From contig JASFXZ010000001.1 in NCBI GenBank assembly GCA_032209605.1, forward strand, positions 9,363,703-9,427,702: a stretch of 64,000 nucleotides of DNA, given 5' to 3'. Position numbers and translations under genes: made by a program. Each line of letters opens with the position of its first letter. Within the stretch, counting starts at the first letter, position 1. The DNA comes from Mactromeris polynyma. Taxonomy: Eukaryota > Mollusca > Bivalvia > Venerida > Mactridae. Below the pieces are notes generated by a model, which ran no database searches, was not told the origin of the DNA, and was given only the letters and a program-made list of their open reading frames with translations. Positions 1-63,329 of the stretch are shown in pieces.

Positions 1-1132
1 TCGCATAAGTGGTCTACACACAAAACAATGTAATTTCTATACACATATAAAATATATGAGTTTTTATAGAATGGTACTTCTCTTAATTTTTAATTGGGGA
101 TTCTTTATTGATACACAAATAAAATTTGTTTTGTTTTGTTTAAATCATTTAAGTTAAATGAGTTGCGCATCATATTATCAATCTTAAGACCACTTTGTTG
201 TATACACTTGCATCGACTTGTTTCGCTATTTTTTTACTTCTGTTTCAGGATCACTGATTTAAATGCAGCTTTTGCGACATATGGAATGACAGCACAGAGA
301 GGTAAGTAAGGTATTGTATACGTTATCATAAACATGAAAAAGTGTCATGTCTGCAGTTTTTAATATGTGATGGCAAAGTGAAGTTTAAATCACGTTCTTT
401 TACGTGTTTGGTAGAATGTGATCATAACAATGTGTTTCTCAATAAACATACTGGTAAGCTAATTATTCCAATAGGTAAGGTGTGTTGCTCAGGTCTGGCT
501 TGCATCTCTGTCGATTCCACGACCACAATATTACTTAGTTCCAGCGTATTAACGAAAACAGATTCTCCATCATCATAGGAAACTCACATGGTCGTCGTTT
601 AGTATCTGTAACACCTTTGTTTAGAAACGATGACATAATATTTGATTTCGTTTAGTAATGGTGACATTTGTTGAGGCATCGATAACATCATTTAACACCA
701 AATCAAAGCTTTATTTTACATCGAAAATAGATCAAGTGCACATGATTTTATATAACATGAGTATACAATTCATTAAAATTCTTGTTGTGCATTATTCCAT
801 GGCCGTTTACAGTATATTTACTGAAATAAATGATATTTAATAATATTTCTTAAACCTCAGTTGTACAATTGTGCCAATAATTGTGTTTATCCGTATAATT
901 TCCGAAAACATAACATTGAAAACATAAGCTGGGATTACATACTGTCAAAAGTTAAATTACCCAGCCAAGAAAAATCCCGATCGTCTCTGGAACTTAATTA
1001 TTTTATACTTCCATACAGCGAAATAGTCTGCATGTCCTCGTTAGTGGAGAGAAACGATGACATTTTTCGTTGCGAATCGATGACGCGTCGTCGTTTAGAA
1101 CTGCATCACGCATTGACATAGTTGCATACCAG
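1..1132. repeat. Left copy of a ~1.1 kb duplicated block
   Basis: This block matches 2480-3541 in the same orientation with a few percent divergence. The offset is 2476 bases at the left end and 2404 after about base 200, so the right copy lacks about 72 bases. It may continue left of the window. It contains a possible 51-base exon (250-300) between a ttcag acceptor and a gtaagt donor, open in one frame. No homology was recognised. The short open frames in the block are mostly shared by both copies. Confidence 0.85.
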
Positions 1133-1283
1133 TGATTTTGCCTACATGCGTGATTTATCGATAGTTTTACATAATCTCACTGGTATGCAACCATGTCAAT
1201 CGTGATGCAGTTCTAAACGACGACGCGTCATCGATTCGCAACGAAAAATGTCATCGTTTCTCTCCTGTTATGAGGACACATCT
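1031..1283. repeat. Inverted repeat, ~105 bp arms, ~45 bp loop
   Basis: The segment 1031-1136 is repeated as its reverse complement at about 1178-1283, nearly identical over 100 bases. The arm is the 3' end of the duplicated block. The second block copy has this arm only once (3437-3541), so the inverted extra arm is specific to the left copy. Confidence 0.85.
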
Positions 1284-1930
1284 CGGTAAGTATGTATCTT
1301 ATATTGTTTTTAAAACAGAGCAAATGTTTCTTCTTCGTTTTTCAGCCAGGGTATGAACCACGGTGCATGTCTATGTCCTTCAGTATTTATTTCGGCTACA
1401 CTAGTACGAGTGAAATTGGTATTTTGTCATATTATCGTTTAGAATCGTTTACTTTGGAGTGTATTTTATCATTGCAGTTCAATGGCTTAAAAACATACAT
1501 TTTAATCACAACTTTGATTTTCTCAGTATAACATTGTCCATATAATGCCAAAACAACTAATTTCACACAAAAAAACGCCTGGTAACTGTATATTTTACGA
1601 TTAAGTTTTCTTCGAATGTCATGGTTTCTCGCAGAGTGTGTCATGGTGTCTCAACGAAATCAGATTTTATGTAATGATCTCTAAACGAAAGCATTAATGC
1701 AAATGGAATAGTTTCTAAGCGTTTTTAATTTCGTTTCAGGTTAACAAGCGATCAATAACGAATCTCTGTTAGTAAAATGGTAAGAGCGTACACATATTCT
1801 TGAATTGAATATGTTTCTTTTTATATAAATTTTAAGAACGAATTGCTTATTTTATCATATTTGCTGCAAATCTTCTGTCTACAATCTACGATCAGAATTA
1901 TATTCCCTAAACTAGAGTAAGAAGTCGGAG

Positions 1931-2180
1931 TTACCTCGCACTGACATGAATACTCCTTTTACCACAGTTATCGAAATTGTTCCAGCCCAGTCCAGTGTGC
2001 ACAATGACCACCATGGATGCATTTGTATACGTTGCACTTGCATGCATCATTTCGGCATCAAACGCCATGAAATTGTTAACCGCCGGACTACTAACGTTTG
2101 CTTGCACCCTTACTGAACAAATCGTACGAGATGGTTTTGATAATTTAAATGTCATATACAGACGTTGTCAGTCTATATAG
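1931..2180. other. Coding-like fragment, unclassified
   Basis: Both strands stay open over about 200 bases in a region less AT-rich than its surroundings. The plus frame from 2004 reads MTTMDAFVYVALACII and continues to a stop near 2178. On the minus strand a frame of about 74 residues is open. Reading the plus strand upstream suggests a frame change near 1990. It could be a decayed exon, a fragment of a mobile element, or chance. No family is assigned. Confidence 0.2.
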
Positions 2181-2479
2181 GATATACCTGGGATCAAATA
2201 CAATTGTATTTCTCACAACTAGCGCATTTCTCGGTTCCGCTGCAAGCGACTGACAGTGTTCCCATTTTAAAGGTGATTGGAGGCGAATTACTTCTCAGTG
2301 ACCGTACCAGCTGACCCCGATTTCAATTCTGGTAGTCAAGCGTTTAAAAAACTTCGCTGACCGGCCCGGTCAGGATTTCTATACGAATAGTGATTCAAAC
2401 ACGTAAAAGAATATAAGTGGAAATTGATTGACCGGAGAACGTATCGATTGTTATACATGTATAAGTATAGCTTATTTCA

Positions 2480-3541
2480 CATAAGTGGTCTACACACAAA
2501 ACAATGTGATTTCTGTACGCATATACAATATATATGTTTTTATAGAAAGGTACTTCTATTAATTTTTAATTGGGGATTCTTAAGCCACTTTGTTTTATAC
2601 ACTTGCATCGATCTGCTTCGCTATTCTTTTACTTCTGTTTCAGGATGACCGGTTTTAATGTAGCTTTTGCGACTTATGGAATGACAGTGCTGAGACGGCA
2701 GTAAGGCATTGTATACGATATCATAAACATGAAAAAGTGTCATGTCTGCAGTTTTTAATATGTGATGGCAAATTGAAGTTTAAATCACGCTCTTTTACTG
2801 TGTTTGGTAGGGATATAGAATGTGATCCTAACAATGTGTTTCTCAATAAATAGACTGGTAAACTAATTATTCCAATAGGTAAGGTGTGTTGCTCAGGTCT
2901 GGCTTGCATCTCTGTCAATCCCACGACCACAATATTACTTAGTTCCAGCGTATTAACGAAAACAGATTCTCCATCATCGTAAGAAACTTCCATGGTCGTC
3001 GTTTAGTATCTGTAACACCTTTGTTTAGAAACGATGACATAATATTTGATTTCGTTTAGTAATGGTGACATTTGTTGAGGCACCGATAACATCATTCAAC
3101 ACCAAATCAAAGCTTTATTTTACATCGAAAATAAATCAAGTGCACATGATTTTATATAACATGAGTATAAAATTCATTAAAACTCTTGTTGTGCATTATT
3201 CCATTGCCGTTTACAGTATATTTACTAAAATAAATGATATTTAATAATATTTCTTAAACCTCAGTTGTACAATTGTGCCAATAATTTGGTTTATCCGTAT
3301 AATTTCCGAAAACATAACATTGACTACATAAGCTTGGATTACATACTGTCAAAAGTTAAATTACGCAGCCAAGAAAAATCACGATCGTCTCTGGAATCTA
3401 ATTATTTTAGACTTACCATACAGCGAAATGGTCTGCATGTCCTCATTAGCGGAGAGAAGCGATTACATTTTTCGTTGCGAATCGATGACGTGTCGTCGTT
3501 TAGAACTGCATCACGCATTGACATGGTTGCATACCAGTGAA
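2480..3541. repeat. Right copy of the ~1.1 kb duplicated block
   Basis: This is the direct duplicate of 1-1132. The possible exon seen at 250-300 is here about 2643-2690, with an altered 3' border (gcagtaagg). Short open frames match between copies (for example 658-840 and 3062-3244), but many differences are amino-acid changing and no domain is visible. A duplicated non-coding or decayed segment is the simplest reading. Confidence 0.85.
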
Positions 3542-4327
3542 TCTGACGTCTCAAAATGCTATGTATCCACACTTATGGTATAAACTAAACCTACAGTGTT
3601 GGAAATAATCACGGATGTAAATCTGTGCATAAGAGAGTCTGTACAATGATTTATGTCTTAAATCATGGGGTGATACTTCGTTATATTACTGATACAAGTT
3701 ATATATGATAGTTGATATTGATCACAGTGATCAGAGCGAGGTAAACGATTATAAACATCGATATCTTTTCTTGATATTGAACATCGATAATCTATTCATA
3801 CAATTGTTCACAATCATTACTGCTCCCCGCATTTTGAGGATTCCAGTCGATTTCTGATTCATACTGCCATCTGAATTTGTTTCAACATCATATTTTCTCG
3901 TACAGCAATGGCCCACAATTGATTGAACGTAGACTAATAAATGTCCACATGTGTGTTGACCTAAATGTCATAATTCTGCATAACAATCAGGACCCCATTG
4001 GAAATAAGCTTCAGTGCTTAAGTGGGCCATCCTAGGTTGAATACATACTAAAATGTTAGCTAATTGCTCATTTCAAGCTTCTGCATGTAATATTTTACTA
4101 TTGTTTCTATGATTTAAGTTTATGAACAATTACCAATAACTCCTCATTATGTTTATATTAACTGTTGTAATATAAAAAAGTCACCATGAATAGTAATTAT
4201 TATTTGTACTGAATCTGTGATATCATGTAAATTATTTGCTCAATAGATCTATAACAACTGACTTAAATATATGTTAATGTAAACCCACTGTGATGGTTAT
4301 GTAAAAGTCTGTATTATAATTGTATAT
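3542..4327. other. AT-rich intergenic DNA, nothing recognised
   Basis: There are no open frames of note, no splice-bounded exon and no clear repeat. A short stretch near 3955-3990 (gttgacc...tctgcataac) recurs at about 15234-15265, perhaps as a diverged dispersed repeat. Confidence 0.5.
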
Positions 4328-4520
4328 ACAGTCAAACCTGTCTGTAAAGACCACCCATGGGAACAGCAAACTGTGGTCTTTGTTTACAGGTGGTCTCTAT
4401 TAACAGATTAAATATCATTGAAAATGGTCTGATGGGAGATAAAATTGGTGGTCTTTGCAGACAGGTTTTGCAATAGTGGTCTTTGTTTTCGCAGGTGGTC
4501 TTTAACACATGTTTGACTGT
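4328..4520. mobile_element. Mariner-like MITE, CAGTCAAACCTGT termini
   Basis: A 193-base element with terminal inverted repeats (CAGTCAAACCTGT / its complement) flanked by TA, as expected for Tc1/mariner-type insertions. The interior repeats 'gtggtctttg' motifs. A second copy lies in inverse orientation at 8836-9026. It has no coding capacity. Confidence 0.85.
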
Positions 4521-5306
4521 ATGTGTTTTTACCTGAAATAAAATCAAGCAATCAATCTGTTCTATAAAAAAGCTTTACTCGCGTTTCCGGGTGAGCATTG
4601 CTTTCTTTAGCACCGATTTCATGTAACCTCGATACAGTTTGTAAATTGTTTTCTCAGATGCCGTATCGATATTAACAGACGTATACCACTTTCACATATG
4701 TAAGAGAGGAATACGCACGCTATGCATTCCACGTATTATATTTTAAATATGCTGGCTGTTATAAATGAATGTGCAGCCATAAGTTCATTCCAGGTTATGT
4801 GATAGATTAACCGGATATCGATGTGAGCTTTCTATGCGATCCATGGTGCGCACCACTGAATGAATTATTTTACTCTAAAATATTTATGACACAGGGAAAA
4901 AAATGTATCAGTTTCACATCCCTTAATGCAAAAAGCTTTAAATCCATAGCAGCGTTAGCTTGCAATAAATAATATGAATCATATTGGATCGCAAATCCCC
5001 TTTACAGTTCAACCACTCCAGAACGACCCACACCTGAACAACAACAACCTCTCTTCAACAACAGTCTCAATTTCCCTAGCAAATACAGTACTACCTAAAT
5101 AACCTCTCTATACCAACAACCTCTCAACAACAGCCGAACTTTGCTTCTGCTATAGTCCAGCCACGGACGTCACATCTCTATACTGTCGCTGTTACGAACG
5201 ACGCGTGTAAAAGTCGGAGTACAGAGACATGTATGCGGGGCTACTTCTGCTATAGGGTGTTACTCTGCCCAGGTTGCGCTGTACATGTGTTTGATCATAC
5301 GTTATA
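4521..5306. other. Intergenic DNA, no gene seen
   Basis: From about 5030 to 5140 the sequence is loosely repetitive, with recurrent 'aacaacctctc'. The 12-base motif ttctgctatag occurs at about 5144 and 5246. Nothing else was recognised. Confidence 0.45.
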
Positions 5307-8825: not shown

Positions 8826-8835
8826 ATAACAGTAT

Positions 8836-9026
8836 ACAGTCAAACCTGTGTTAAAGACCACCTGCTAACAAAGACCACTATTGCAAAACCTGTCTGCAAA
8901 GACCACCAATTTTATCTCCCATCAGACCATTTTGAATGATATTTAATCTGTTAATAGAGACCACCTGTAAACAAAGACCACATTTTGCTGTTCCCATGGG
9001 TGGTCTTTACAGACAGGTTTGACTGT
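8836..9026. mobile_element. Mariner-like MITE, inverse copy of 4328-4520
   Basis: This is the reverse complement of the element at 4328-4520, highly similar over its length, with the same CAGTCAAACCTGT termini and TA flanks. It abuts the preceding MITE cluster. Confidence 0.85.
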
Positions 9027-9839
9027 ATATTGTTTTGATAGTTTGTAAGTGGGTTCATGTAATTAAATTTATTGTTTGCATAATTCAGTATGTATACGTG
9101 TACGCTCGGTTGGTCATCTATATTTCATAAATAATTCACAACCAATGTATTTATACTTTTATAGACCTCTATATGGAATAGTATCCGTGTCACGGTGTTG
9201 ACGGTTCTTGCTATAAGTGGACAGAATTGAATTCGATTCTTCGCAAAGAAGAGAGGTATTCAATTACGTAAATGCATAATTATGTCCGTCCTTTACGTTG
9301 TTATAATATTTTCTGATGAATGCTTAGATAGCCGAAATATTGAAACGAGAACACGATAAATTATATTATAAAACATGCATATTTATTTACGTGATAGCTT
9401 TAAACCGACACTGGCTTCTTGTTAGAGGAATCAATGTCTTACTTTATGACTCGATGCAATTGAACAAAGTCGAGAAATCGACGAGTGAAAGTTGTTATCT
9501 ATAGAAGATACGACATTTCGCTCGCCTGATGAACTTGATTGTTGGTTTCAAGAATGTTATCAACATAATTACCGGGCCTGTTTAATCAAATAGCAATATA
9601 AAGCAATCTCATACAAAGTTAAATGTCAAGTACATACTGCGTCTTCCCAGCATTTATGTTAGATGTTCAACCAACAGCTAACTGTAATGGACATAGCGGT
9701 CAATATATAGGTGATGTGATTCTGCATTTAATGCAATTGTTATAAATGTTATTGTACCCGGCTTCCGGGAACTGGGACAACCAAACATCGACATTAGTCA
9801 ACACATTATTTGGATGCTGGTACCCTTTTATTGATTTTT

Positions 9840-13391: not shown

Positions 13392-14912
13392 ATGAAGACA
13401 ATAGACGAGGAGATGGATTCGAGTATCCGACTTCACACCAACAGCTGTGACAAGCTTTATCGTTGGTCGATGTGGAGAATGTATCTCAACGAAGAATTGT
13501 CACGTGTTATTTCATCCAGATATGATTTCGCAGACCAATCGAAATCAGTAAACAAAGTGACGTCACCATATCTTAGGCATCGTGATGGTATGAAATATGG
13601 TCGGCATATGAAAAAACTGTTCCAAAAAAACTTGACCAATCCCCGTTCCCTCGATATCTTACCAGACAATGTGTATCTAGTGTATGGGCTACCGAGAGTG
13701 TCCATACATAACGTGCCAGAAGAAGTGAAAAAGCTACACGAATCAGTGAAACATTGTCAAACATATAGCGAACAAAAAGACACGGCGTCGTCCGAGTGCA
13801 TAGACGCGGGGGAACAAATTACTAAAATGTTTGAGTTTGTTACGTCAGACTTCACTAAAGGTGACGTCAGTCAACTGACGTTTAGAAGACTCGGTGGTAA
13901 TAGACCTCGAACAGCCAATGGTCAAAATGGAAACGCTCAATCACATGATCAAGAACATAAGAGGACTTTTAGAAGAAAGATTGCTTTGCCCGGCGATGAT
14001 GCAGCTGAAAGAAAATGTGATACTGAGCGGGATATGAGCGAAATAGATGTTCCTCTTGTAAGCAAAAGTCGGCTATTCTGGGAAAGACTAGCAAGTAACA
14101 AAACAGACATCATTGAAATGAAAAACAGAAATGGACATGTAAATGATGCCAACATTCATGCACCACAGTACGTGGTACCTCCACCACCAGTAAGGTCAGA
14201 TATCAAACAAACACAACAGTACGTAGTACCGCAAGCGCCAGTTTACTCAGAGATAAAACAAACACAACAGTACGTAGTACCGTTAGCGCCAGTTTACTCA
14301 GAGATAAAACAAACACAACAGTGCGTAGTACCGTTAGCGCCAGTTAAGTCAGAGAACAAACAAACACAACAGAACGTAGTACCGCCAGCGCCGGTTAAGT
14401 CAGAGATTAAAGAAACGGCACATTACACGACACTGCCGGCAGCCGTAGAGCCAGAGACTAAAGAAGTAGTTGGGATATCCAGCGAAATACTTCAGAAACA
14501 ACAAAAACTGTTGAAAAAGACAATTCCTAAAAGGACCAGTAAAGATCTGTGGCGAACAATTCGTGATAGGAAAACAGAAATTTTGCAACTTAGAGAGATG
14601 AATGAAAACTATGAGCAAGTTAGTTCAAATCAAGGAAAGAAGCCTGAGAGAAAAACCAGCCAGCTGTGGAGTTTCTTATTCACCAAGAAGAGGGAGTTAG
14701 TACAGATGAAACAAGGGTCCAAAGGGAATCACGAAGCTACGAAAGGACATCAACAGCAAGAACGCGGAAAGAAACATCACAATGTAAGCAATGGCAATGC
14801 ACAGTCCAACATGATTCCAAGTAATTTTGAAGACAATTTTCAAAAGGAATTAGCAGAGAAACTACGAAAACGACGAGAAAAATCTGTTGTAATAGAATCA
14901 TCTAACCTGTGA
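13392..14912 (+). CDS. 506-residue repeat-containing protein, unknown function
   Basis: The frame is uninterrupted for 506 codons, far longer than chance in this AT-rich DNA, so it is probably real. The ATG sits one base after a tttttag acceptor, which suggests a spliced leader exon upstream. The N-terminal 160 residues are mixed and hydrophilic. Residues ~259-357 hold about six 17-residue repeats around the core QYVVPxAPVYSEIKQTQ. Three copies of a Trp motif lie at about 226-244 (SRLFWERLASNKTDIIEMK), 383-401 (SKDLWRTIRDRKTEILQLR) and 423-440 (SQLWSFLFTKKRELVQMK). The C terminus is basic and probably helical (FQKELAEKLRKRR at 483-495). No signal peptide or membrane segment is seen. It is rich in K, Q, E and S, so it is probably largely disordered and intracellular. 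No family was recognised. It could be a scaffold or cytoskeletal protein, but that is a guess. Confidence 0.75.
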   Translation: MKTIDEEMDSSIRLHTNSCDKLYRWSMWRMYLNEELSRVISSRYDFADQSKSVNKVTSPYLRHRDGMKYGRHMKKLFQKNLTNPRSLDILPDNVYLVYGLPRVSIHNVPEEVKKLHESVKHCQTYSEQKDTASSECIDAGEQITKMFEFVTSDFTKGDVSQLTFRRLGGNRPRTANGQNGNAQSHDQEHKRTFRRKIALPGDDAAERKCDTERDMSEIDVPLVSKSRLFWERLASNKTDIIEMKNRNGHVNDANIHAPQYVVPPPPVRSDIKQTQQYVVPQAPVYSEIKQTQQYVVPLAPVYSEIKQTQQCVVPLAPVKSENKQTQQNVVPPAPVKSEIKETAHYTTLPAAVEPETKEVVGISSEILQKQQKLLKKTIPKRTSKDLWRTIRDRKTEILQLREMNENYEQVSSNQGKKPERKTSQLWSFLFTKKRELVQMKQGSKGNHEATKGHQQQERGKKHHNVSNGNAQSNMIPSNFEDNFQKELAEKLRKRREKSVVIESSNL

Positions 14913-18600: not shown

Positions 18601-20052
18601 AATTGAAGACGGACACATGTTTTTAAACTGTTATGATGACACTCAACCACAGGAGATTGTCACGAATTATCTCCCTTTATCCTTTCTAGATTTCTCTCCC
18701 TCTATTTCTTCTATAGTATAAGGGAGAAAACTTTCATCACAATTTCCTGTGCACTCAACTGTGTTTCACTGTATTGTCGACTAGAGTATTCATAATACTG
18801 TGCTGATTATGGGGCTTTTTGTGCTCTTGAGCAGAACAGTATGTTTAAGCAGTATCCAAAACAAGACAAAACAAAGGCTGTGAATTTTATTCAATATGAA
18901 AGTGAGTAATAAAAAGTAATACACCATGTTGAGGGTTCAGCGCAAGACTATACTAATTCCTATGTATTTATATAGGAGTAAGTATAGTCTTGCACTGAAC
19001 ACTCGAATTGTGATAGAATGGTATCACAGCAAAACACATGGCATTAACAAGAAAACAACAAAATTATAAAAAAGTAAGGATATAATTTGTACATTTAAAG
19101 TGAATAATGAACACATATACTATTTCATACAGAAATATCGATGAATTGATACTATTAACAAGTTGTGGAAATGATAGTAATGATATAAATGTATAAAACA
19201 CATTATCTGAACATGCTGCCAGCTATTGTCAGTAAATAAATTACTAAACTATTGTAACAAAATTATTAATATAAATAATGTCAGAAGGAATACTTATTCG
19301 TCTAAATCTGACATAAAACAACAAACATAAACAGGGGACAAACTTTTGCAGTTGTACAAATCTGAACTTAACACCATCAAATACGTAAAATAACTAAAAG
19401 ATTCTGATTTTTTTTTAATTCCTTTGCTTTCAGTAGCAAAAATGTTTTAATTTATGTTGTACATGACAAAGTCTTGTAGAAATATAATTTCACCAACTTA
19501 TACTCCCAAAAGAAGCAATGTTTGAAACTTTTTAATGGTGTTAGACATTAGATATCATCTGGATAAAAGAATAAAAGAAAAAACAATGACTATCGACTAA
19601 TCAATATAAACTGAATTATTCTGGATAGAATAAGTGCACATAAATATATAACATCATAAACAAAACTATTTGTTAAAAAAGCAACTATAAATAACTGAAA
19701 ACACAGAAATCAAATAAAAGTGAAGCTGCTCCCGAATCATTATGGCAAACTTGCTGGATAAATTTAAAACAATTAGGTGTCAGCACTAAGCTATCATAAC
19801 TAGGGGAGTCCCCAAAAGTTCTTCCAAAAACCCATAATGATTCCAATGACCAATTTTTTGTTATTCTGCGAACAACTGTTTTAATTGATAGGCAACCATA
19901 ATGACTAACACGCGCATGGATGAGCATTGCACAGGAAGTCAATGATGACAACAGAGAATATGTCTGATCCCCACCAATGTAATAAGAAGTCCAATTTTTT
20001 TCTGGGTCACCCCTCATAAATAAAGCATAGACTTCTAGAAGATTTCTTGAAT
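18601..20052. other. Intergenic DNA downstream of PNKP
   Basis: Mostly AT-rich. It contains the palindromic element at 18931-19004. A minus-strand frame at 19685-20017 has no recognisable domain and lies past the predicted poly(A) signal of PNKP, so it is not called as a gene. Confidence 0.45.
18931..19004. repeat. 74 bp near-perfect palindrome (hairpin element, copy A)
   Basis: Base i pairs with base 75-i over almost the whole 74 bases, leaving only a tiny loop in the centre of tatgtatttata. Exceptions are c/a at 11/64, a/a at 25/50 and a T-G wobble at 27/48. It aligns without gaps to 45414-45487. The ends and centre are conserved, while the arms differ but still pair. Confidence 0.9.
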
Positions 20053-20196: not shown

Positions 20197-23100
20197 CTAC
20201 GTCCACTGTTTAAAAAGTGCTTCATCGTTTTTATTGTCAAACTTAGGAACGAAGGGAACTTGTATAATTTCTGAGAAACCTTCAGCTTTTGTGGGTGCTT
20301 CAAAATTCTTCTTGTACACGTGATAGCCAACATCGGGTATCCGACGTACGGCCCCTTTACTCTGTGTTTGACGGAAATAGTTCAAATGATGAGCAAGTTC
20401 TAGAGGCGTGTCCATGATGAAACACCGGCAAGGTACACCTTAGGAAAGAGAACAATATTCAGTAGAACATTTCTTAAAAGATATTAGACTGGCATCTCAA
20501 CTATATCAGAGGATACTTTTGTTTAACTGTAAGTTTAGAATATATTCTTTAAGTAAATACCATGTAAGGAAAAAACTCAGAATAACTTTTCTCAAAATAT
20601 GCATGGGTTGTCAATATTGAACTAATTCATTGTCCGTTCTTTATTTATATGGTACAAGTACTGGTAAAATACCCATGATGCAGTCATCAAGAGTGATTAG
20701 TATAATGGATCATAAGTTAGGCAACCAATCTTATGATCTTCCATATGCATGCATATCTTTGGTAGGCAGTTAATAGTTGAATGCTTAGTAAATAAGTACC
20801 AGTTTTCTTTGCACAGTTTATGAAATCTTTCCTTGCTGCAGCATTTGGATGTGTGTTATCTGCTACCACACTCTTCTTTTCCTTTAATGCTTCAGTGGCA
20901 GCCTATAGAAAATATTGAATAAATAGATGTATAAATATACTGGTCAAAAAAGCTAACTTGCAAATCATATTTATATTTCAATTAGTCTTTACAAAGCAAC
21001 TGGATATATTTTATGTTGATTCTGATTACAGAAAACTGTAACATTTATGATAAAATTGGATACAATTTTAAAAACAGTTGACGTAATCTGGTCAAAATCA
21101 TGTTCACTTTCTCACTATGTAGCGAAGATTCAAAGTACAAAATAATGGGCAAGTTTTTTTGACCAGTATACCAATTAATCATATTCTACTTTTTTCACAG
21201 ATTTAAGATTAAAGAAAAGCTTATGAGGAAGTAGATGGTTTAACACTTAAATGTACAATTATTAATGTTGTATTTCAGCAGCACAAATATATCTGATAGT
21301 CAGTTTGACATCACCCACTTTTGATGAAAGTCTTCTTTAACAACAATTATAATAACAAGATAATAATAGTCAGACATAGAAGACATATTGCTTTATAACT
21401 TACATTCATCCGATTTCCAGAAATGCAAGGCATGAATGTTTCTTTAGTGGAAAACACACACATACGCACCATATAGTGTAGGATGAATATCAGATATTGA
21501 AAGTAAGTTATACCTTGACACATTTCTGCTTTGTTCCCATCGTGTCCCGATTTACGACAACATAACCATGCCGTTCAAAGTAGTGTTTCCTGAATGTACT
21601 TTTCCCTGTTGCAGGGGCACCAACCATCATCACCATCTCAGGGGTCTGTCAATGTAAATAGAACTCCACAATAAACTAGATGCTTCCATAGGAAACAGAT
21701 GCCCCGCTATGGGCTCTTCAGCAGAATACAAATACTTAGTTTGTAAAGGCCAAATAATTTTGAAGCAATATCAATTGAAAATCAATTTATGAAGTACAAA
21801 AAGGGCCATAACTCCTCCAAAAATAGGCAGATTGTAACTAAAATCACACTTGGTCTGTATTTTATTATCCTTTATGTATTTGCCCAATATAAATTGAACC
21901 CACCCAGTTATTGATCGGAAACCAATGTTTGCACGGAGGGACGGAAAGACGCTCACATGGATGGACAGAGGTAACACTTTATGCCTCTTCACCATTCTTT
22001 GAATGGCAGGGCATAATAATTTAAAGCCACAATAATGTGCTGGTCATCGTAAGTGCTTATAAATATGACTTACATTAAACTTTTTTTGTTCATACAATCA
22101 TCATAAGCTGGATTTCTTTTTATAAGCACCAGAATTAAAATCAAATGTTATCTCACAAACTCTTAAAACGTGATCACAAAGCTAAATAAGAGATTCCAGG
22201 GAAACTGCATATTATAGCTCATTTAAATAACTTCCTGAGATTAGTATGTAATTGATCAATTGGTATTAGATACATGCTTCTTATATTTCCTATAGTAGGT
22301 CTCTTACACATTTCCAAACTTTGAATTATGTACTGTACCAGCATAATATTCAAGATAGGAAGTACAGACTGAAGAGAATCTGATCATTGACAGAGTTATT
22401 TACCTTACTATGGTACTCTTTCTTGTCGAGGGGTGATTTAGCCTTGTCCAGGATGGCAGCTGGGTCGATACTTTGCCAAGTAAATGGTGCAGGTTTTACA
22501 CCAAGGAAAAACTCGTCCGGAGTATGAAATTCTGCAAAAGAATGAATCAGTATTAATCAGTAATAAATGCTTTCCTAAATAAATCGAAACATGTATAACC
22601 TATAGCAATTTAATTACCAAAAACATCGATAAAAAACAAAATCAAAGTACTAATGAGTAGAATTTAAATTAGGATAGCATATTAACAATGAAGGTGTGCA
22701 TGACATTCAATTACGTACCAACTCCTACGTTGTATGCAAATTTTCGATCACCACATGAGAAATCTTTTGGTTTTCCAGGTTCCCATCCCTTTGCCCTTCC
22801 TGCTGCATCTCCCACATATATACATTTTGATCTGTCAACCTAAAAATTTAAATAAATATAGAAAATTTCACCAGTGTTCATATAATATAGATTTTATTAA
22901 ATAAGATTTCTGGAAGCAATACAATATTTACCTTTTGGCAAGTTTTATCGTTTTCTAAAAATGAGTTTATTAAATTTAATCATGAAGATGAATGTAACAT
23001 TTATAACTTGCCAAAAAAAAACAGCCACCACTGCAAGACAATTTCGATGTCATGCCATTTGTTATCTCGCCAGTGTATTATCAAATATTATAGCAAGGTG

Positions 23101-25549
23101 CCATTTTGGTTTTGAAAGATCATTTATGACATAAAGTAAAACCAGACTTAAAGACTACCTGAATAATAAGACCACCTCAATATTAAGAACACAAGTTTAA
23201 AGTCCATTTTCACTGTTTTGCTCTTTATTGAGTCTCAATATTAAGACCACCTCATTATAAAGACCGGTTTCAAAGAGTCCAAATGGTGGTCTTATTATCG
23301 AGGTTTTACCGTAAATAAAAACATTAGCTATCAAGAAGTAAATTTAGTAAAGCTTGCCAACGAACAATGTACAAGTTGCTGAATATAAATACATGTACAT
23401 GTATAAGGAAAATGCTTCGCAACCTTATATTTTCATGTGATGATTAGATGCAATATTTTGCGAATGGACACTGTTATGCTGATGACTTGCATAAAACGAT
23501 GTAACCAAACGTTAAGTTGAAATAATTATTTTAAGCATTGTTATAAATCAACCAAAATTAGAACAGATCTCATATTCTCAACTTTAAAGAGGCAAAGTCA
23601 TTGCATAGAAGTGAATAAATTGGCCAATTTTAGTTTTCAGCCAAGAAGTATCTGAAAGAGGACATGTGAGCAAAGCCATCATGAAACCTACGATGAAGCT
23701 TTAAATGTATTACCTTGACTCCTTTGTTCCAATTTGTTTCCCAATATTCCCACATTAAAGTATTTGGTTTTCTGTATTGGTTTTCTCCGGTACTGACAAA
23801 TGCCTGAAATAAATTATTATTAAATCTCACTAAAAGACCACCTTGGAAATAAGACCCCATCATCAATAAGTGTATTTAATATTGACCAGTGTTTAATTTA
23901 TCTTCTGTATTTTAACTCAATACTCATAAGGCCAAAACAAAAACAAAGTGTGGTTCCACTTTCCTGACCGACCCTAACTTTTTATATTCAATACTAAAAA
24001 AAAAAAATATCGTAAAAGTGGGTCCCATATGAAACTCTGTTTGCGTGCGACGACAACGACACTAAATTGAAGTCGTCAAAAACCAAAAAAAAACCAAAAA
24101 AAAAACCCTACCTACCTACCCTATTTTTTTCAGGCATGTAACTGGAACCACACTTATTTTTTTTGGCCTTATTATCAGCATAAAATTAACACCAATTTTC
24201 TTCGGAATCAATGGTGGTCTTATTACATGTATTGAGGTTTCACTGGATTTGTTGCAATTATCAACTTACTGGGTCATACAAATGTAATGATAATATTATT
24301 GTGTTATCATTCTTTTAAGAAGACTTCATGGAATCCCAGCAGTGCTATTTTTATAGATGACAGTGACATGTTGTTTCTTCAGGGTCCGATTGTCAAGGAC
24401 AGATCTGTTAGGTTAGATTTTCATTCGATTTTTAATTGTTTTTGAAAAAAAAACAATAAAAAAAAAATAAATAAAAAAAAAACTTTGTCCCTACCCTACC
24501 TAGCATTTTTGAGACCGTTACCCTAAACACAGATATTATTTTTTTTGGCCTTATGCATGCATTTACTCAGACATTCGAGAATCTGATAAATAACTTGTAT
24601 GGGAGATTTTTGCAACCTAGCAACAGTAAAAAAAACACGAACCAAAACTGGGATGTCCAATTCTTTTATCATTGCCTCGATTTTCTTCTGTAATTCTTCT
24701 GGTTTAACTTTGAGTTTTTCTATACCAGCTTGATTTGTGAAGAATATCACACGGTACCCTTCTTTGTTAAGATCTTGCAATTTCTTTGGCACACATTCAT
24801 CCCACCATTCCCAGTCAGTTGCACCTGGTCATTAGCAAAATACAACAAAAAATCATTACAATTTTAGGATATAAAAAATTAATTGAAGCTTGAAATTGAA
24901 GCATCCCTGAAATTGTAAAGGACAAATAAAAAAATCCCTACATCTGAATATGTAATGCTTTATGTACGGTTACTACCGAATTTGAGTGTTATTTGCAGAA
25001 AAAAATGTATTATTCGGCAGTTATTTCGAATTATTCGGTATAATCCGTTATTATTCGGTATTATTCGGTATTAAGAGTATGTAAAAATACCATGGAATGA
25101 AACCGAAACTAGTCTATCTTATCTACAATGATTTAATAAAATATATCTATAATATAAATCTAAATGATAAAAATATCTCACCAGTCGCAAATCTACGTCC
25201 ACTTGCAGTTTTTATGTAAATACCATGGAATGAAACCGAAACTAGTCTATCTCATCTATAATGATTTAATAAAATAGAATTTAAATGATAAAAATATCTC
25301 ACCAGTCGGAAATCTACGTCCACTTGCAGTTTTTATCAAAGTGAAATCGATATCAAATCCTGCGGCTTTCTTACAACCAGGGAGGGTGGATGAAATCAGT
25401 GTCAACAAGGGACACACGTTCTTGACAATGTCCCCGTGATATTCCCATCTTAAATCATTTCCTAAATCAGTTTCACCTTTCGCGCGTTTCGCTTTGACAA
25501 CAGCTTCGTCCGCTGCTTTTCGTTTAAGATGTTGTCGTCTTGAACTCAT
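20197..25549 (-). CDS. PNKP: Polynucleotide 5'-kinase/3'-phosphatase (PNKP), 8 exons, complete
   Basis: PNKP restores 3'-OH and 5'-phosphate ends during DNA strand-break repair. Exons, all with GT/AG borders and consistent phase: 25549-25303, 24824-24643, 23803-23714, 22839-22719, 22531-22404, 21645-21514, 20902-20800, 20438-20197. They give 414 residues. A basic, NLS-like N terminus ([21 protein letters not shown], residues ~4-24) replaces the FHA domain of vertebrate PNKP (human ~521 residues). Phosphatase motifs are D66-I-D68-F-T70 (motif I), FFTNQ (111-114), YRKP (153-156) and VGDAAGR (182-188). Kinase motifs are Walker [10 protein letters not shown] (265-273), VNRD (287-290), VADNTHP (313-319) and a C terminus matching 'FEAPTxAEGFSxI'. 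The usual Gly of the DxDGT motif is Phe here, while both Asp and the Thr are kept. The start is the ATG giving MSSRR. A longer in-frame start exists about 50 codons upstream but lacks similarity. Confidence 0.95.
20936..21170. mobile_element. MITE with TATACTGGTCAAAAAA termini in PNKP intron 6
   Basis: The two ends are inverted copies (tatactggtcaaaaaa / ttttttgaccagtata), 235 bases apart, within an AT-rich interior without coding capacity. The TA-rich ends suggest a TA target. Confidence 0.75.
21660..22020. repeat. Dispersed 'gggccataactcc' repeat in PNKP intron 5
   Basis: The segment has a gccataactcc core, a 'ggacggaaagacg / ggacaga' stretch and an end 'ggcagggcataat'. This arrangement is characteristic of abundant mollusc repeats, from general knowledge. 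No coding content. Confidence 0.5.
23140..23316. mobile_element. 'cctcaataataagacca' MITE in PNKP intron 3
   Basis: The ends are agtaaaaccagacttaaag and tattatcgaggttttaccgt, roughly complementary. Internal 'aagaccacctcaatattaag' motifs are repeated. Confidence 0.65.
23820..24246. mobile_element. MITE containing a second nested MITE (PNKP intron 2)
   Basis: The outer element has ends taaatctcac...aagaccacc and ggtggtcttatt...gaggtttcactgg. Inside, 23928-24170 is a distinct element with ~29-base inverted termini (AAGGCCAAAA...TGTGGTTCCA). The inner element inserted into the outer one, with TA at the junctions. The outer left end reaches to about 17 bases from the exon 3 acceptor. Confidence 0.75.
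24363..24552. mobile_element. Partial relative of the nested element
   Basis: The right end (ctaccctacctagc ... tattttttttggcctta) resembles the right end of 23928-24170. The left end is not complementary to it, so the copy is probably truncated or diverged. It lies about 90 bases from PNKP exon 2. Confidence 0.45.
24990..25082. repeat. Short 'ttattcggta' repeats
   Basis: Five or so imperfect copies of ttattcggta occur between about 25012 and 25072, in PNKP intron 1. Confidence 0.6.
25083..25338 (-). repeat. 133 bp tandem duplication spanning the PNKP exon 1 donor
   Basis: 25083-25215 and 25216-25338 are near-identical. Each contains the end of exon 1 ([10 protein letters not shown] in the genic copy, [10 protein letters not shown] in the extra one) followed by the same gtgagat donor. 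The genic donor is 25303/25302. The extra copy lies inside intron 1 as a decoy. Confidence 0.9.
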
Positions 25550-25799
25550 GTTTGCAAAATAACAAGGTAAGTCAATGGTTTTGTATTTATATCTGTATAT
25601 TGTTCTATTTTTATATCCGGCAGTTGTAATGCTACAAACGAAATCACTCCTTACCGTTCGTTGATTATCTCCCTTAGCAGGATGTGAATCTACACTGTAA
25701 AGGAAGACCACTGCGTAGGAATTGATAGTAATCGTTGCTGTAGTTATTTCCCTTTTATGCTAATGACGGTATAACTTAAACCCCGATTGCCTTATAAAA

Positions 25800-32354: not shown

Positions 32355-48509
<16,155 letters not shown>

Positions 48510-51171: not shown

Positions 51172-51252
51172 CTTTTATAATATATATGGTTAAAAACAAT
51201 TCTGTGTAAAAGTTTTACACAGAATTGTTTTTAACCATATATATTATAAAAG
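51172..51252. repeat. 81 bp perfect palindrome, 1-base centre
   Basis: The 40-base left arm (cttttataatatatatggtt...ctgtgtaaaa) is followed by a single g and then its exact reverse complement. No related copy was seen in the window. Confidence 0.95.
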
Positions 51253-51373: not shown

Positions 51374-51444
51374 ATACAAATGCGTATATAACGGTAACCA
51401 TTCAATACATTATTGAATGGTTACCGTTATATACGCATTTGTAT
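51374..51444. repeat. 71 bp perfect palindrome, 3-base loop
   Basis: Arms of 34 bases (atacaaatgcgtatataacg...) flank the loop cat. Complementarity is exact. It is only 121 bases from the preceding palindrome and unrelated to it in sequence. Confidence 0.95.
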
Positions 51445-58088: not shown

Positions 58089-61000
58089 ATGGATTATGTT
58101 GATCGGTTGGAGGAAGTTTTAGTTTCAGGTTTTCCGTTAGCATTGGTTGCTGGTGATTCCAATGTTCATCGAATCAACAATGTTGTGGATGAAGATGCAA
58201 CAATAGAGTGTCTACCCGTCTCTGGTGAGTCTGTTTAATCTTTTTGAATCTATTGCAAATGGTTTTTACTTAACCACCACCAACACCACCAATTGCGTTA
58301 AGAGGGGGCATATATAGATTTGTCATCTGTCAAATTGTTTGTCTCCAATTTGTTGCATTTAACTTTAGTAGTGTTTGAGCTACCATTACACTGTTCATTC
58401 ATCAAACTAAACAGGAATATTAGTCTGCATCTGTAGTTACTAGGGGTGCAACGATACAGCCAACCCGTATTGCGATATGTATCGCAATACATTACACACT
58501 TTTATGTAAAGAAAAACACAATGAAACTGAACCCATAGATTTATTTCCTTGTAGCTATAGCATCAAAATCAAACAGGAATCAAAGGGAAACACTGAAGGC
58601 GGCATTGCCTTATACATCGGTTGGCTGTGGTGGCAACTTTTTGATGTCTCTACAAACGGCGACCCATTTGATCTAAGATACTAGACATTCTAAAAGATGT
58701 AGCGGTCTTCAATAGTTTTAAAAGTCGGCTACATTGTTTGCAATATGTGCTGAAATATTAGATAAAATATCGCAATACAGGGAAGTCGTACCACAATACG
58801 TATTGGCCAGACGCTGTATTGCAATATACCGGTACCGGTATATTGTTGCACCACTAGTAGTTACCCAGCGTCTGCTTCGAGAGTGAAAGGTCCTCTGTCA
58901 AATCTCAGGTCGCAACAATACCACACAGTTATTTAAAATGGCACTGCAGGTAACTGGTAAATATTCCGTGTTTAATACTCATCATAGGTTAGTTCAAGGT
59001 AAATGCTCGTTCAACAGATTTGTAAAGATACCATTTTTGAAAACTGCTCTTGTTCATTGTATAATTATTGCTTAATTTCATAATTTGTAGGAGCTAGATA
59101 CATTGATGATAAGAAAATGTTCAGGAATCAGCTGAGTGTGTGTTTGAAGAAGGTCAGCTACAAACAACTGTACTTGTTCCTGGGATCCAATGATGTGCTG
59201 AACAATGATATTTTGTTCTACAGGTTGGTTATATAAGCACTACTTTGCTGATGTTTGATTGCCTTTTTTGCATTGAACTGTTATTTCTCAATCAACCAGA
59301 TTTTGTTTTGATCTTCATGAACAGCTGATCTTAATATTTCTCTATTTATGATTTCTAAGAAGAAATTTGAAATTAGGTAACCTCATGATTTCAATTACCA
59401 AGCAGAGACTGAAACATGAATGAGTCCTGTTAATCATTAATGCTGTATTATTGTATCACCCTTATTTCATGACTGACTGACTGACTGACTGACTGACTGA
59501 CTGACTGACTGACTGACTGACTGACTGACTGACTGACTGACTGACTGACTGACTGACTGACTGACTGACTGACTGACTGACTGACTGACTGACTGACTGA
59601 CTGACTGACTGACTGACTGACTGACTGACTGACTGACTGACTGACTGACTGACTGACTGACTGACTGACTGACTGACTGACTGACTGACTGACTGACTGA
59701 CTGACTGACTGACTGACTGACTGACTGACTGACTGACTGACTGACTGACTGACTGACTGACTGACTGACTGACTGACTGACTGACTGACTGACTGACTGA
59801 CTGACTGACTGACTGACTGACTGACTGACTGACTGACTGACTGACTGACTGACTGACTGACTGACTGACTGACTGACTGACTGACTGACTGACTGACTGA
59901 CTGACTGACTGACTGACTGACTGACTGACTGACTGACTGACTGACTGACTGACTGACTGACTGACTGACTGACTGACTGACTGACTGACTGACTGACTGA
60001 CTGACTGACTGACTGACTGACTGACTGACTGACTGACTGACTGACTGACTGACTGACTGACTGACTGACTGACTGACTGACTGACTGACTGACTGACTGA
60101 CTGACTGACTGACTGACTGACTGACTGACTGACTGACTGACTGACTGACTGACTGACTGACTGACTGACTGACTGACTGACTGACTGACTGACTGACTGA
60201 CTGACTGACTGACTGACTGACTGACTGACTGACTGACTGACTGACTGACTGACTGACTGACTGACTGACTGACTGACTGACTGACTGACTGACTGACTGA
60301 CTGACTGACTGACTGACTGACTGACTGACTGACTGACTGACTGACTGACTGACTGACTGACTGACTGACTGACTGACTGACTGACTGACTGACTGACTGA
60401 CTGACTGACTGACTGACTGACTGACTGACTGACTGACTGACTGACTGACTGACTGACTGACTGACTGACTGACTGACTGACTGACTGACTGACTGACTGA
60501 CTGACTGACTGACTGACTGACTGACTGACTGACTGACTGACTGACTGACTGACTGACTGACTGACTGACTGACTGACTGACTGACTGACTGACTGACTGA
60601 CTGACTGACTGACTGACTGACTGACTGACTGACTGACTGACTGACTGACTGACTGACTGACTGACTGACTGACTGACTGACTGACTGACTGACTGACTGA
60701 CTGACTGACTGACTGACTGACTGACTGACTGACTGACTGACTGACTGACTGACTGACTGACTGACTGACTGACTGACTGACTGACTGACTGACTGACTGA
60801 CTGACTGACTGACTGACTGACTGACTGACTGACTGACTGACTGACTGACTGACTGACTGACTGACTGACTGACTGACTGACTGACTGACTGACTGACTGA
60901 CTGACTGACTGACTGACTGACTGACTGACTGACTGACTGACTGACTGACTGACTGACTGACTGACTGACTGACTGACTGACTGACTGACTGACTGACTGA

Positions 61001-63329
61001 CTGACTGACTGACTGACTGCTTTCACTATTAATTATTTCCTCATATATTTTTTATGGTAACTAATGAAGGAAATATTGTGCAAATTTAGGAATGTGACTG
61101 AGGTGTGTGACCTAGTTCATGAAACTAGTCCAAGCACTGAAGTTATACTGTGTGAGATACCACAACGGGGACCCAGCCTGAGGAAGAACGTACCAATAAC
61201 AACACTGAAGGCAATGCGGAAGTGGATTGTGTGTGCTAACATCACATTGAAGGAAATAAGTGCATGTACACCTTATGTTCGATTCCTCGCATGTGGTAGA
61301 TTTCTGGTAAACAATTCTTTTATGAATTATGTCTTGACATTGAGTAGGAAAAATGAGTTCTTTTCTGTTAAGTAAATAGTATATATTGAAGATTAAATTA
61401 CACCAGCTTTGATAACTCGGCTCAGTAGAGCTTCTGAGTGTGGGAGATTAGATGTTTGCTCCATAGTCCATAGCAAAGTCATACAAAAAAACATAATCTT
61501 AGTACACATGTTTTCCATTGCTCAGCATGAAGATGGAAAACATGACTTCTTTTCTAGCATACTGTTGTGGTGATATTATGTTCCATCACAAATGAGGTGT
61601 CGAGAGTGATATGAAATTGAAATATCTCACATTCAATGTCTTAAAATAAATTGTGAAAATAGTCTTTTAAAAATCTGGTATACTTAGTGGCAGAGGACTG
61701 GTATATTGTTTTGCACGTCTGTCGGTAGACCAAAACCTTTTTAATTATTAAAGAAAACTTATACTAAGTACTCACAGTTGAACATATTACATGTTATGAT
61801 TTGTTATAAAAGCCATATTGTTAAATAATTTTTTGATATCATTAGGTTGCTCAACATTTGGGCTCTGATGGCCTTCACTTGAGTGTGGAAGGGGCAGAGT
61901 TGTGCCACAGGGCCATTGTAACCAACATTAGTGTAGAGGAGGAGCCCTTTTCTGTTAGCTCCCCATCCTTCATTGTTGAAGAATGGCCTGTTCTTGGAGA
62001 CGTCCACACTGACAAGGACTTGGAGTCTAGAGCTGAGAACTACATTTACCACACTCCATATGCTGATATTGCTCGAGCTGAGGTAATTCCATATATTATG
62101 TCTGTATTTTGGGATATATCAATTCATTCATGGAAAAAGAAATTTTTAAAGGGTAGTTAATACTGATAATAGTACAGTCCATGAAAACATTGTCAGGAAA
62201 ACCCACAACCGTATATAACTGAAATACTGCTGAAAAACGTCAGGAAACCTAATAGAACAAGTATATTGTATGATGATTGACATGTTCTTACTCTTTTTCT
62301 TTGTTTTAGTTTGTTTCAGGAGATATGGAAACTATGGAGCAAGTTGAAAAATGTAGGAAACCCAGAAATAAGAAGGTAATCATTTATACATTAACTTTGT
62401 TTATTGACAGGATTGTATATAAGTTTTCTGCATTTTAAGATAAGAAAAATCTTATTTATTTGTAATACAGTCAGGACTCGATATAACAACACTGTTTGTT
62501 ACTGAGAAAAATAGTGATAAATCGAAAATGTTGGTATACTGAATTTCAGTAGAAAAATGTAGAATATTGAATGGGAGTATATATTGACATTTCGTGAGCT
62601 GAGGGTTCATGTACATATTTCCAAGTATAGTTACAAACTAAAATCATCCTACTGAAAATTTCATTTACATTGCAATTTTGGTTTCCGACTTTTTTGTCGG
62701 TATACAAATATTCTGTTAAAACCAATCCAAGTTATGTTGTAAAAGATTGATCCCCATCAAATTGATATTGTTATGTGAATTTGTCAGTATGACAGGTGTC
62801 ATTGTAATAAGATTTGACTGTACCATAATCTTGTATATGTTATGTGGCATATAGAAAATTATAAATATAAAGCATTCGTTTTGTCTCAGGTTGTGAGTAG
62901 GAAGCGCAAACATCACAGAACAGGACAAAGTGAGAAGCGCATATTTAAACAAGGTCGCAAACGATGGCTGAAAAAGAAGGTAATGAATTGAATTTTCTAT
63001 TTTCTTGGACTTGTTACCTATATTTTATTGTTATAAGTGCCCTGTAGTAAGCCTCTGTCTGTTGGTCCACATTTTTCATTCATGAGATTTCTTTATAACT
63101 TTCTAACCATTTAATGTATCATCTTTAAACATAAGGTAACAGAAGTACACTATTTATGACAAGTTATGCTTCAACTTCAAAACTGTTCCTACATGTATAC
63201 TCCTGTTAATGTCATAATTATGTATAATATTCATAATACAATTTTCAGTTTGCAAGGAAATGTGACATGATGTATAAATTTAAAGAAGTTGTTATTATTG
63301 AAGTTAAATTTAGCTCACCTGTCTCATAG
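58089..63329 (+). CDS. SGNH-hydrolase-fold protein, 7 predicted exons
   Basis: Predicted exons: 58089-58224, 59091-59223, 61090-61306, 61846-62082, 62310-62375, 62890-62979, 63249-63329. All have GT/AG borders and consistent phase, giving 319 residues. SGNH blocks are visible: block I AGDSN with nucleophile Ser24, block III LGSND (76-80) with oxyanion Asn79, and block V SDGLHLS with Asp170 and His173. The catalytic triad is therefore complete. No signal peptide is seen. The C terminus (about residues 255-293) is strongly basic, with RKPRNKK, SRKRKHH and GRKRWLKKK, and looks like a nuclear-localisation or nucleic-acid-binding tail. An in-frame stop directly precedes the ATG. The last exon is the least certain, because its stop lies inside a dispersed repeat and the true gene may continue past the window. 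The substrate is unknown. Other SGNH proteins act on esters of lipids, carbohydrates or peptides. Confidence 0.8.
59471..61019. repeat. Perfect (GACT)n tetranucleotide tract, ~1.55 kb
   Basis: About 387 uninterrupted copies of GACT (CTGA) lie in intron 2 of the SGNH gene. No interruption is seen on reading the rows. Any long frame across it (Ser-Val-Ser-Gln on the minus strand) is a by-product of the repeat. Confidence 0.99.
62195..62255. mobile_element. SINE tail fragment
   Basis: The stretch ccgtatataactgaaatactg resembles the body of the SINE at 33905-34175. Only a fragment is present, in SGNH intron 4. Confidence 0.4.
62468..62820. mobile_element. MITE with CAGTCAGGACTCGATAT terminus
   Basis: CAG...CTG ends are flanked by TA (CAGTCAGGACTCG versus CAGTCAAATCTTA). 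The 353-base interior is AT-rich with 'ataacaacac' and 'gtataca' segments. It lies in SGNH intron 5. Confidence 0.55.

Follow-up and report, generated by a model that had tools for sequence, protein, structure and literature searches.

A short hairpin in the stretch of Mactromeris polynyma DNA analysed here (64,000 nucleotides, henceforth the window) raises the question of how the two arms of a palindrome can change in sequence and stay complementary. The window holds a second copy of this hairpin, and a sequence-only reading had noticed that the two differ at several facing positions that are paired in both. It had proposed that the structure is maintained, either in an RNA or as a transposition substrate, or else that one arm is repeatedly copied from the other. 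We addressed the question in the window and in the 793-Mb assembly (299 contigs) that contains it.

Two hairpins in the window differ by paired changes

The two copies and their parts lie at the following positions of the window:

18930..19005, + strand: MITE copy 1, subfamily A; 76 bp, palindromic; its first base is T, against C in most copies
18958..18977, + strand: centre of copy 1, TCCTATGTATTTATATAGGA, including the hairpin tip; identical in copies 1 and 2
18926..18929: left target duplication of copy 1, ATGT
19006..19011: right target duplication of copy 1, AATTGT, which equals ATGT with a 2-bp AT insertion at the junction
45413..45488, + strand: MITE copy 2, subfamily B; 76 bp; flanked by AAAT and ATTA, with no exact target duplication
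45441..45460, + strand: centre of copy 2

Both hairpins are real, but the element with its ends measures 76 bp and not the 74 first assigned to it. On the 74-base numbering the gap-free alignment is exact (57/74 positions identical), and so are the five double changes that had been named (pairs 10/65, 16/59, 20/55, 22/53 and 23/52): all five are Watson-Crick in both copies, and three are double transversions. One-sided differences are about as many, as had been judged, and affect 7 pairs, of which 5 lose pairing and 2 keep a G-U. When the 17 substitutions were placed randomly, five or more Watson-Crick double changes arose in a fraction of 4.5e-5 of 200,000 simulations, which bears out the view that independent mutation would rarely produce the pattern; with substitutions restricted to pairs 6-27 the frequency was ~1.4e-4. 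Folded on the + strand with a few flanking bases, the copies form near-perfect hairpins with folding z scores of -12.0 (copy 1) and -16.2 (copy 2).

The flanks of the two copies showed no significant similarity to each other (best E 0.11). Shared sequence beyond the palindrome, suggested by a match of TTGTGAT, was rejected because in copy 1 this match belongs to the target duplication with its AT insertion. A covariance model built from both copies recovered the two, on both strands; its one other match, a weak one (E 0.14), fell within a different palindrome in the window. Two other perfect palindromes, unlike the MITE in sequence, lie 121 bp apart at 51172-51252 and 51374-51444; their arms of 40 and 34 bp are 100% complementary and are separated by spacers of 1 and 3 nt.

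The remainder of the window holds further repeats and putative genes. Positions 1-3545 contain a ~2.4-kb direct duplication with pieces 90-96% identical, positions 36786-39286 a 52-bp tandem unit in 48 copies with 95% matches, and positions 59470-61019 the tetranucleotide TGAC in 387.5 perfect copies. The word AAGACCACCT marks a dispersed family of repeats, which occurs in both orientations at 4324-4522, 8834-9030, 23149-23313 and 42680-42803. On the minus strand, exons at 20197-25711, recognised by eye, resemble polynucleotide kinase 3'-phosphatase (PNKP), and exons at 32355-35285, likewise judged by eye, resemble a Src-type tyrosine kinase. Copy 1 lies ~1.2 kb beyond the last PNKP-like exon. 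Two ORFs, one of them a PNKP-like exon, gave no match in Pfam. For a 506-aa ORF at 13392-14912 the best named relative is from Mactra antiquata (57%), an unnamed protein being closer (61%), and further named relatives are found in Mercenaria, Ruditapes and Mya.

The hairpin element is a palindromic MITE

An 18-base core of the element has 1,316 exact occurrences in the host genome (643 + 673; reversed control 0), and a subfamily B arm word has 1,194 (582 + 612; an intact copy is counted twice; reversed control 0 + 1). Copy numbers are minimum estimates, and our samples come mainly from two contigs and mostly by way of the exact core. The main set of 83 copies comprises 100 listed core-exact places (98 plus the two window copies) less 2 flank duplicates and 15 gapped or truncated copies. 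Relatives of copy 1 were taken from the closest 40 of 1,004 candidates, each scored at 96% or more, and the close-copy set holds 28 A copies, copy 1 included. All ungapped copies measure 76 bp. The element runs from CGAGGG to CCCTCG, lies in differing flanks and has no coding capacity; its arms are terminal inverted repeats of 38 bp. In a search for an autonomous partner, no second end within 6 mismatches was present in ~3 kb beside two truncated copies.

Outside the host, a core 20-mer had 0 matches in viral contigs, a 21-mer had 0 in prokaryote genomes, core 16-mers had 0 in the literature text searched, and phage sequences gave short matches only, at E 0.4 or worse among the best 20 of 59 records. 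On one contig (G000 C113), copies L022 and L023, at ~4.04 and 3.91 Mb, have flanks in common, which indicates a segmental duplication; that contig has more places with the element, at a spacing of ~17.8 kb.

In 37 of 69 copies the same 4-bp word stands on either side of the element; when the flanks were shuffled 1,000 times, this averaged 10.4 copies and never exceeded 19. At other lengths, the same 69 copies match 0 times over 5, 6 or 8 bp, twice over 3 bp and 20 times over 2 bp. Most of the 37 exact duplications have the form AWWT (ATAT 16, AAAT 10, ATTT 4, AATT 1), and six do not (GTAT 2, AATC, AATA, ATAC, AGCT). Among the 83 copies, 45 have an exact 4-bp duplication, 9 more have a variant with inserted AT and 29 are unexplained. 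A wider set of 145, which takes in close copies, flank duplicates and truncated copies, has exact duplications in 70 (shuffled mean 20). Since a 76-bp unit with fixed ends thus lies in differing flanks, often between identical 4-bp words, we conclude that the hairpin element is a palindromic MITE, that is, a non-autonomous cut-and-paste DNA transposon.

In 14 of the 145 copies a single junction has an extra AT. In eight it stands on the left (L020, L071, L083, L087, L095, L135, L151 and L152; shuffled mean 3.9) and in six on the right (copy 1, at 19006-19011, with L017, L018, L051, L058 and L129; shuffled mean 1.6). The insertion adjoins the element-side base of the target duplication, is mirror-imaged on both sides and may be the trace of an integration or repair step.

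Judged by its target duplications, the transposase that moves the MITE is possibly Sola2-like. As far as described in the source used here, Sola2 elements have AT-rich 4-bp AWWT duplications (ATAT, AAAT, ATTT) and inverted repeats (PMC3627910), both of which they have in common with the MITE, and a curated bivalve repeat library contains 14 Sola2 elements (PMC10294476). The inverted repeats differ in length, 12-21 bp in the Sola2 elements described against 38 bp here.

Subfamilies differ at facing positions

The copies sort into three groups: subfamily A, with copy 1; subfamily B, with copy 2; and C, which is small. In the 76-base numbering, which named pairs follow from here on, copy 1 belongs to A by G-C at 11/66, G-C at 17/60, A-T at 21/56, A-T at 23/54 and C-G at 24/53, and it has in addition a one-sided C.A at 12/65. 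Subfamilies A and B differ on both sides at 7/70, 11/66, 17/60, 21/56, 23/54 and 24/53. The five double changes noticed in the window are therefore subfamily differences, and the sixth, at 7/70, is hidden in copy 2, which reads C.A. The two subfamilies differ at 12/65 as well, where A is variously C.A, T-A or C-G, and within A pair 23/54 is mixed (A-T, C.T, C-G).

At seven pairs, at least 10% of the 83 copies share a second Watson-Crick type. Of the 58 sites outside the core, 15 vary in at least 12% of the copies and 14 of them face one another in 7 pairs, an arrangement given by 0 of 200,000 random placements; variation at positions 30-47 cannot show in sets defined by the exact core. In a phylogeny-aware test 7 pairs were seen, against a mean of 0.35 and a maximum of 3 in 400 simulations with independent sites and matching rates on a maximum-likelihood tree, itself built from the same sites of the 83 copies that were tested. 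Outside the core 29 pairs were examined, and the seven double ones are all confined to the range 7-24 (P 0.020). The consensus of the three groups has 34, 34 and 36 of 38 pairs Watson-Crick. Ends and centre that stay constant, and between them a paired arm middle specific to the subfamily, agree with inverted repeats that are read by a protein.

The idea that A and B arms shuffle freely was rejected, pair 17/60 showing neither G.G nor C.C in 69 copies. Hidden subfamilies with another centre were likewise rejected, none being found among 20 further B copies selected by their arm and by having no listed exact core. Thirteen of these 20 are ungapped and have 18 one-sided and 0 two-sided changes at positions 29-48, four of the 18 occurring in two B copies each; the other 7 are gapped or truncated, two of which, L175 and L184, have one extra T at the tip.

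Inserted copies decay irrespective of pairing

If pairing were maintained in each copy, or if one arm were copied from the other in place, inserted copies should have an excess of two-sided changes. At 22 non-diagnostic pairs outside the core, the 83 copies have 205 one-sided changes, of which 158 break pairing and 47 keep a G-U, and 8 two-sided changes, where 7.9 are expected with independent arms. Watson-Crick two-sided changes number 6 against 4.0 expected (P 0.22), or 3 against 2.5 when CpG pairs 1 and 2 are excluded, and the 28 close A copies have 43 one-sided and 0 two-sided changes. Pairing maintenance and arm copying are both invisible after insertion, and each inserted copy seems to decay like ordinary DNA.

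The interpretation first proposed thus holds in part: common origin, a transposable substrate and arms that are not independent are borne out, but the structure is not kept in the copies. The sequence-only reading had held that single-arm changes as frequent as double ones would speak against it; such changes prevail among copies, but not among subfamilies, which have two-sided changes at 7 pairs. As inserted copies show no matching, the process that matches the arms is tied to mobile lineages. We conclude that the likeness of the arms is maintained in source lineages and not in inserted copies.

Mismatched forms are abundant

A 34-base word spanning pair 23/54 gave, in the first 100 listed of 264 places, A-T 43, C.T 45, C-G 8 and A.G 4, and the corresponding word for pair 24/53, in the first 100 listed of 254 places, G-C 88, C-G 8, G.G 3 and C.C 1. 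Both tallies were made by hand, that for 23/54 was recounted, and possible segmental duplicates among neighbouring places were kept. Copy ages gave no age order for the states at 23/54.

Pair 12/65 is C.A in 45 of 76 non-B copies. Considered together in the same 76, the adjacent pairs 11 and 12 are both matched in 23 copies (17 with G-C and T-A, 6 with G-C and C-G), singly matched in 37 (34 with G-C and C.A, 3 with A.C and T-A), both mismatched in 7 (A.C and C.A) and in other states in 9; 20 copies (18 ungapped) were picked by their state at 23/54, so that this sample is non-random at that pair. These counts suggest that matching came in single steps, although pair 12 lies in a CpG and deamination alone may change it. 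Mismatched forms have spread as well as matched ones.

Discussion

What keeps the arms alike in the lineages that move? We give a probability of about one half to the reading that this palindromic MITE is moved in trans, with its arms held alike in moving lineages by a single transposase that makes 4-bp AWWT duplications and is possibly Sola2-like. The element would consist of two 38-bp terminal inverted repeats joined at a short asymmetric tip, and the transposase, supplied in trans, would make the target duplications. In lineages that still move, both arms would be held to one sequence, since a single transposase has to read the two of them. A change in one arm could then spread as a tolerated mismatch, and the facing arm would later acquire the matching change, an order of steps that the abundance of one-arm states would fit. 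The outcome would be subfamilies that differ by apparently compensatory base-pair changes. Abundant mismatched forms argue against strong selection on pairing or symmetry. Four points count against the shared-transposase reading: no autonomous partner or transposase emerged, the stretches searched for a second end being those beside the two truncated copies; copying would yield the same subfamily pattern; the G-C to C-G flips at 17/60 and 24/53, with few intermediates, are less easily explained by single-arm steps; and 38 of the 83 copies are without an exact 4-bp duplication (9 of them with the AT-insertion variant).

The main rival, though unlikely, is arm-to-arm copying, in which one arm is the template for the other during replication or transposition, through a quasipalindrome template switch or foldback repair. 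Homogenisation of inverted-repeat arms by template switching has been described (PMC8604942) and would leave matched arms like those of the MITE subfamilies. Copying makes transversions as easily as transitions, and three of the five double changes are double transversions. It would also account for the G-C to C-G flips, for which 17/60 has no intermediates in 69 copies and 24/53 has the four noted above in the first 100 listed. Three copies, L081, L129 and L130, each have a matched pair of their own away from the CpG ends, although chance predicts 2.5 such cases. Against copying, template switching as so described acts in place in chromosomes, but the inserted MITE copies have no two-sided excess (8 against 7.9; Watson-Crick 6 against 4.0); as matching is not in excess there, copying would need a tie to movement. 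Copying of tracts fits poorly with adjacent pairs 11 and 12, so often singly matched (37 against 23 both matched, n=76), although CpG deamination may contribute, and the asymmetric tip has not been turned round with respect to the arms (G-C with C.A 34, G-C with T.G 1). The earlier proposal that one arm is repeatedly copied is likewise conceivable, but neighbouring pairs that are often matched singly speak against it.

Such a tie is the substance of a further, doubtful possibility, that movement itself re-matches the arms: a foldback at excision or integration would be repaired from one arm, so that a one-arm mutation could become a base-pair change within a round of transposition. Inserted copies would not fold and so would decay freely. 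If true, re-matching would amount to arm proofreading built into a eukaryotic cut-and-paste element.

Slightly less probable still is that the folded hairpin or a cruciform is the transposition substrate, so that pairing itself is selected in moving copies, as suggested for REPINs. The very stable folds of the two window copies agree with this, as does the nearly complete Watson-Crick pairing of the group consensus sequences (34, 34 and 36 of 38 pairs). However, mismatched forms spread, since pair 12/65 is C.A in 45 of the 76 non-B copies and C.T makes up 45 of the first 100 places listed for 23/54, and a fixed 4-bp duplication marks staggered double-strand integration, not single-strand hairpin transposition.

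We regard a conserved functional RNA hairpin, such as a miRNA or siRNA precursor, as highly improbable. In miRNA precursors it is usually the arm that is constant and the centre that varies; here the opposite holds, with variable arms and a loop-adjacent part that is constant between subfamilies. Copies decay regardless of pairing, and the mismatched form is as common as the paired one, so that the RNA role first offered found no support. Size and stability would suit such a precursor, and Made1 MITEs are given as a source of hsa-mir-548 (PMC1784062). Weak matches to Rfam miRNA families reached 31.6 and 31.3 bits (gathering scores 130 and 100), but the window has no Rfam match at gathering score. 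Chance, with the paired differences as random mutations, had in its favour that the first test used two copies only, and is extremely improbable, since the two-copy simulation, the facing-pair placement test and the tree-based null all stand against it.

Comparison with known systems

The inverted ends of transposons are assumed to stay alike, and the steps by which they do so are rarely visible. Insertions of the human palindromic MITE Made1 have TA duplications. They differ in this from the MITE here, with its 4-bp AWWT duplications and other ends, and Made1 is related to Hsmar1. It is otherwise alike in being a near-perfect palindrome of similar build, 80 bp long with a 6-bp middle between two 37-bp inverted repeats; the word 'compensatory' had no match in the portion of its description that was searched (PMC1784062). 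Compensatory hairpin changes are known from bacterial REPINs; these differ in being bacterial and linked to RAYT tyrosine transposases, and in conserving their two REP ends more than the spacer, whereas in the MITE the middles of the arms vary and the ends and centre are constant. This family also illustrates that a functional RNA need not lie behind strong covariation among repeats. The kind of element is thus already known from Made1; what is unusual is the large number of one-arm states within one genome, and because matched and one-arm states occur there together in such numbers, selection by a transposase and copying between arms become distinguishable.
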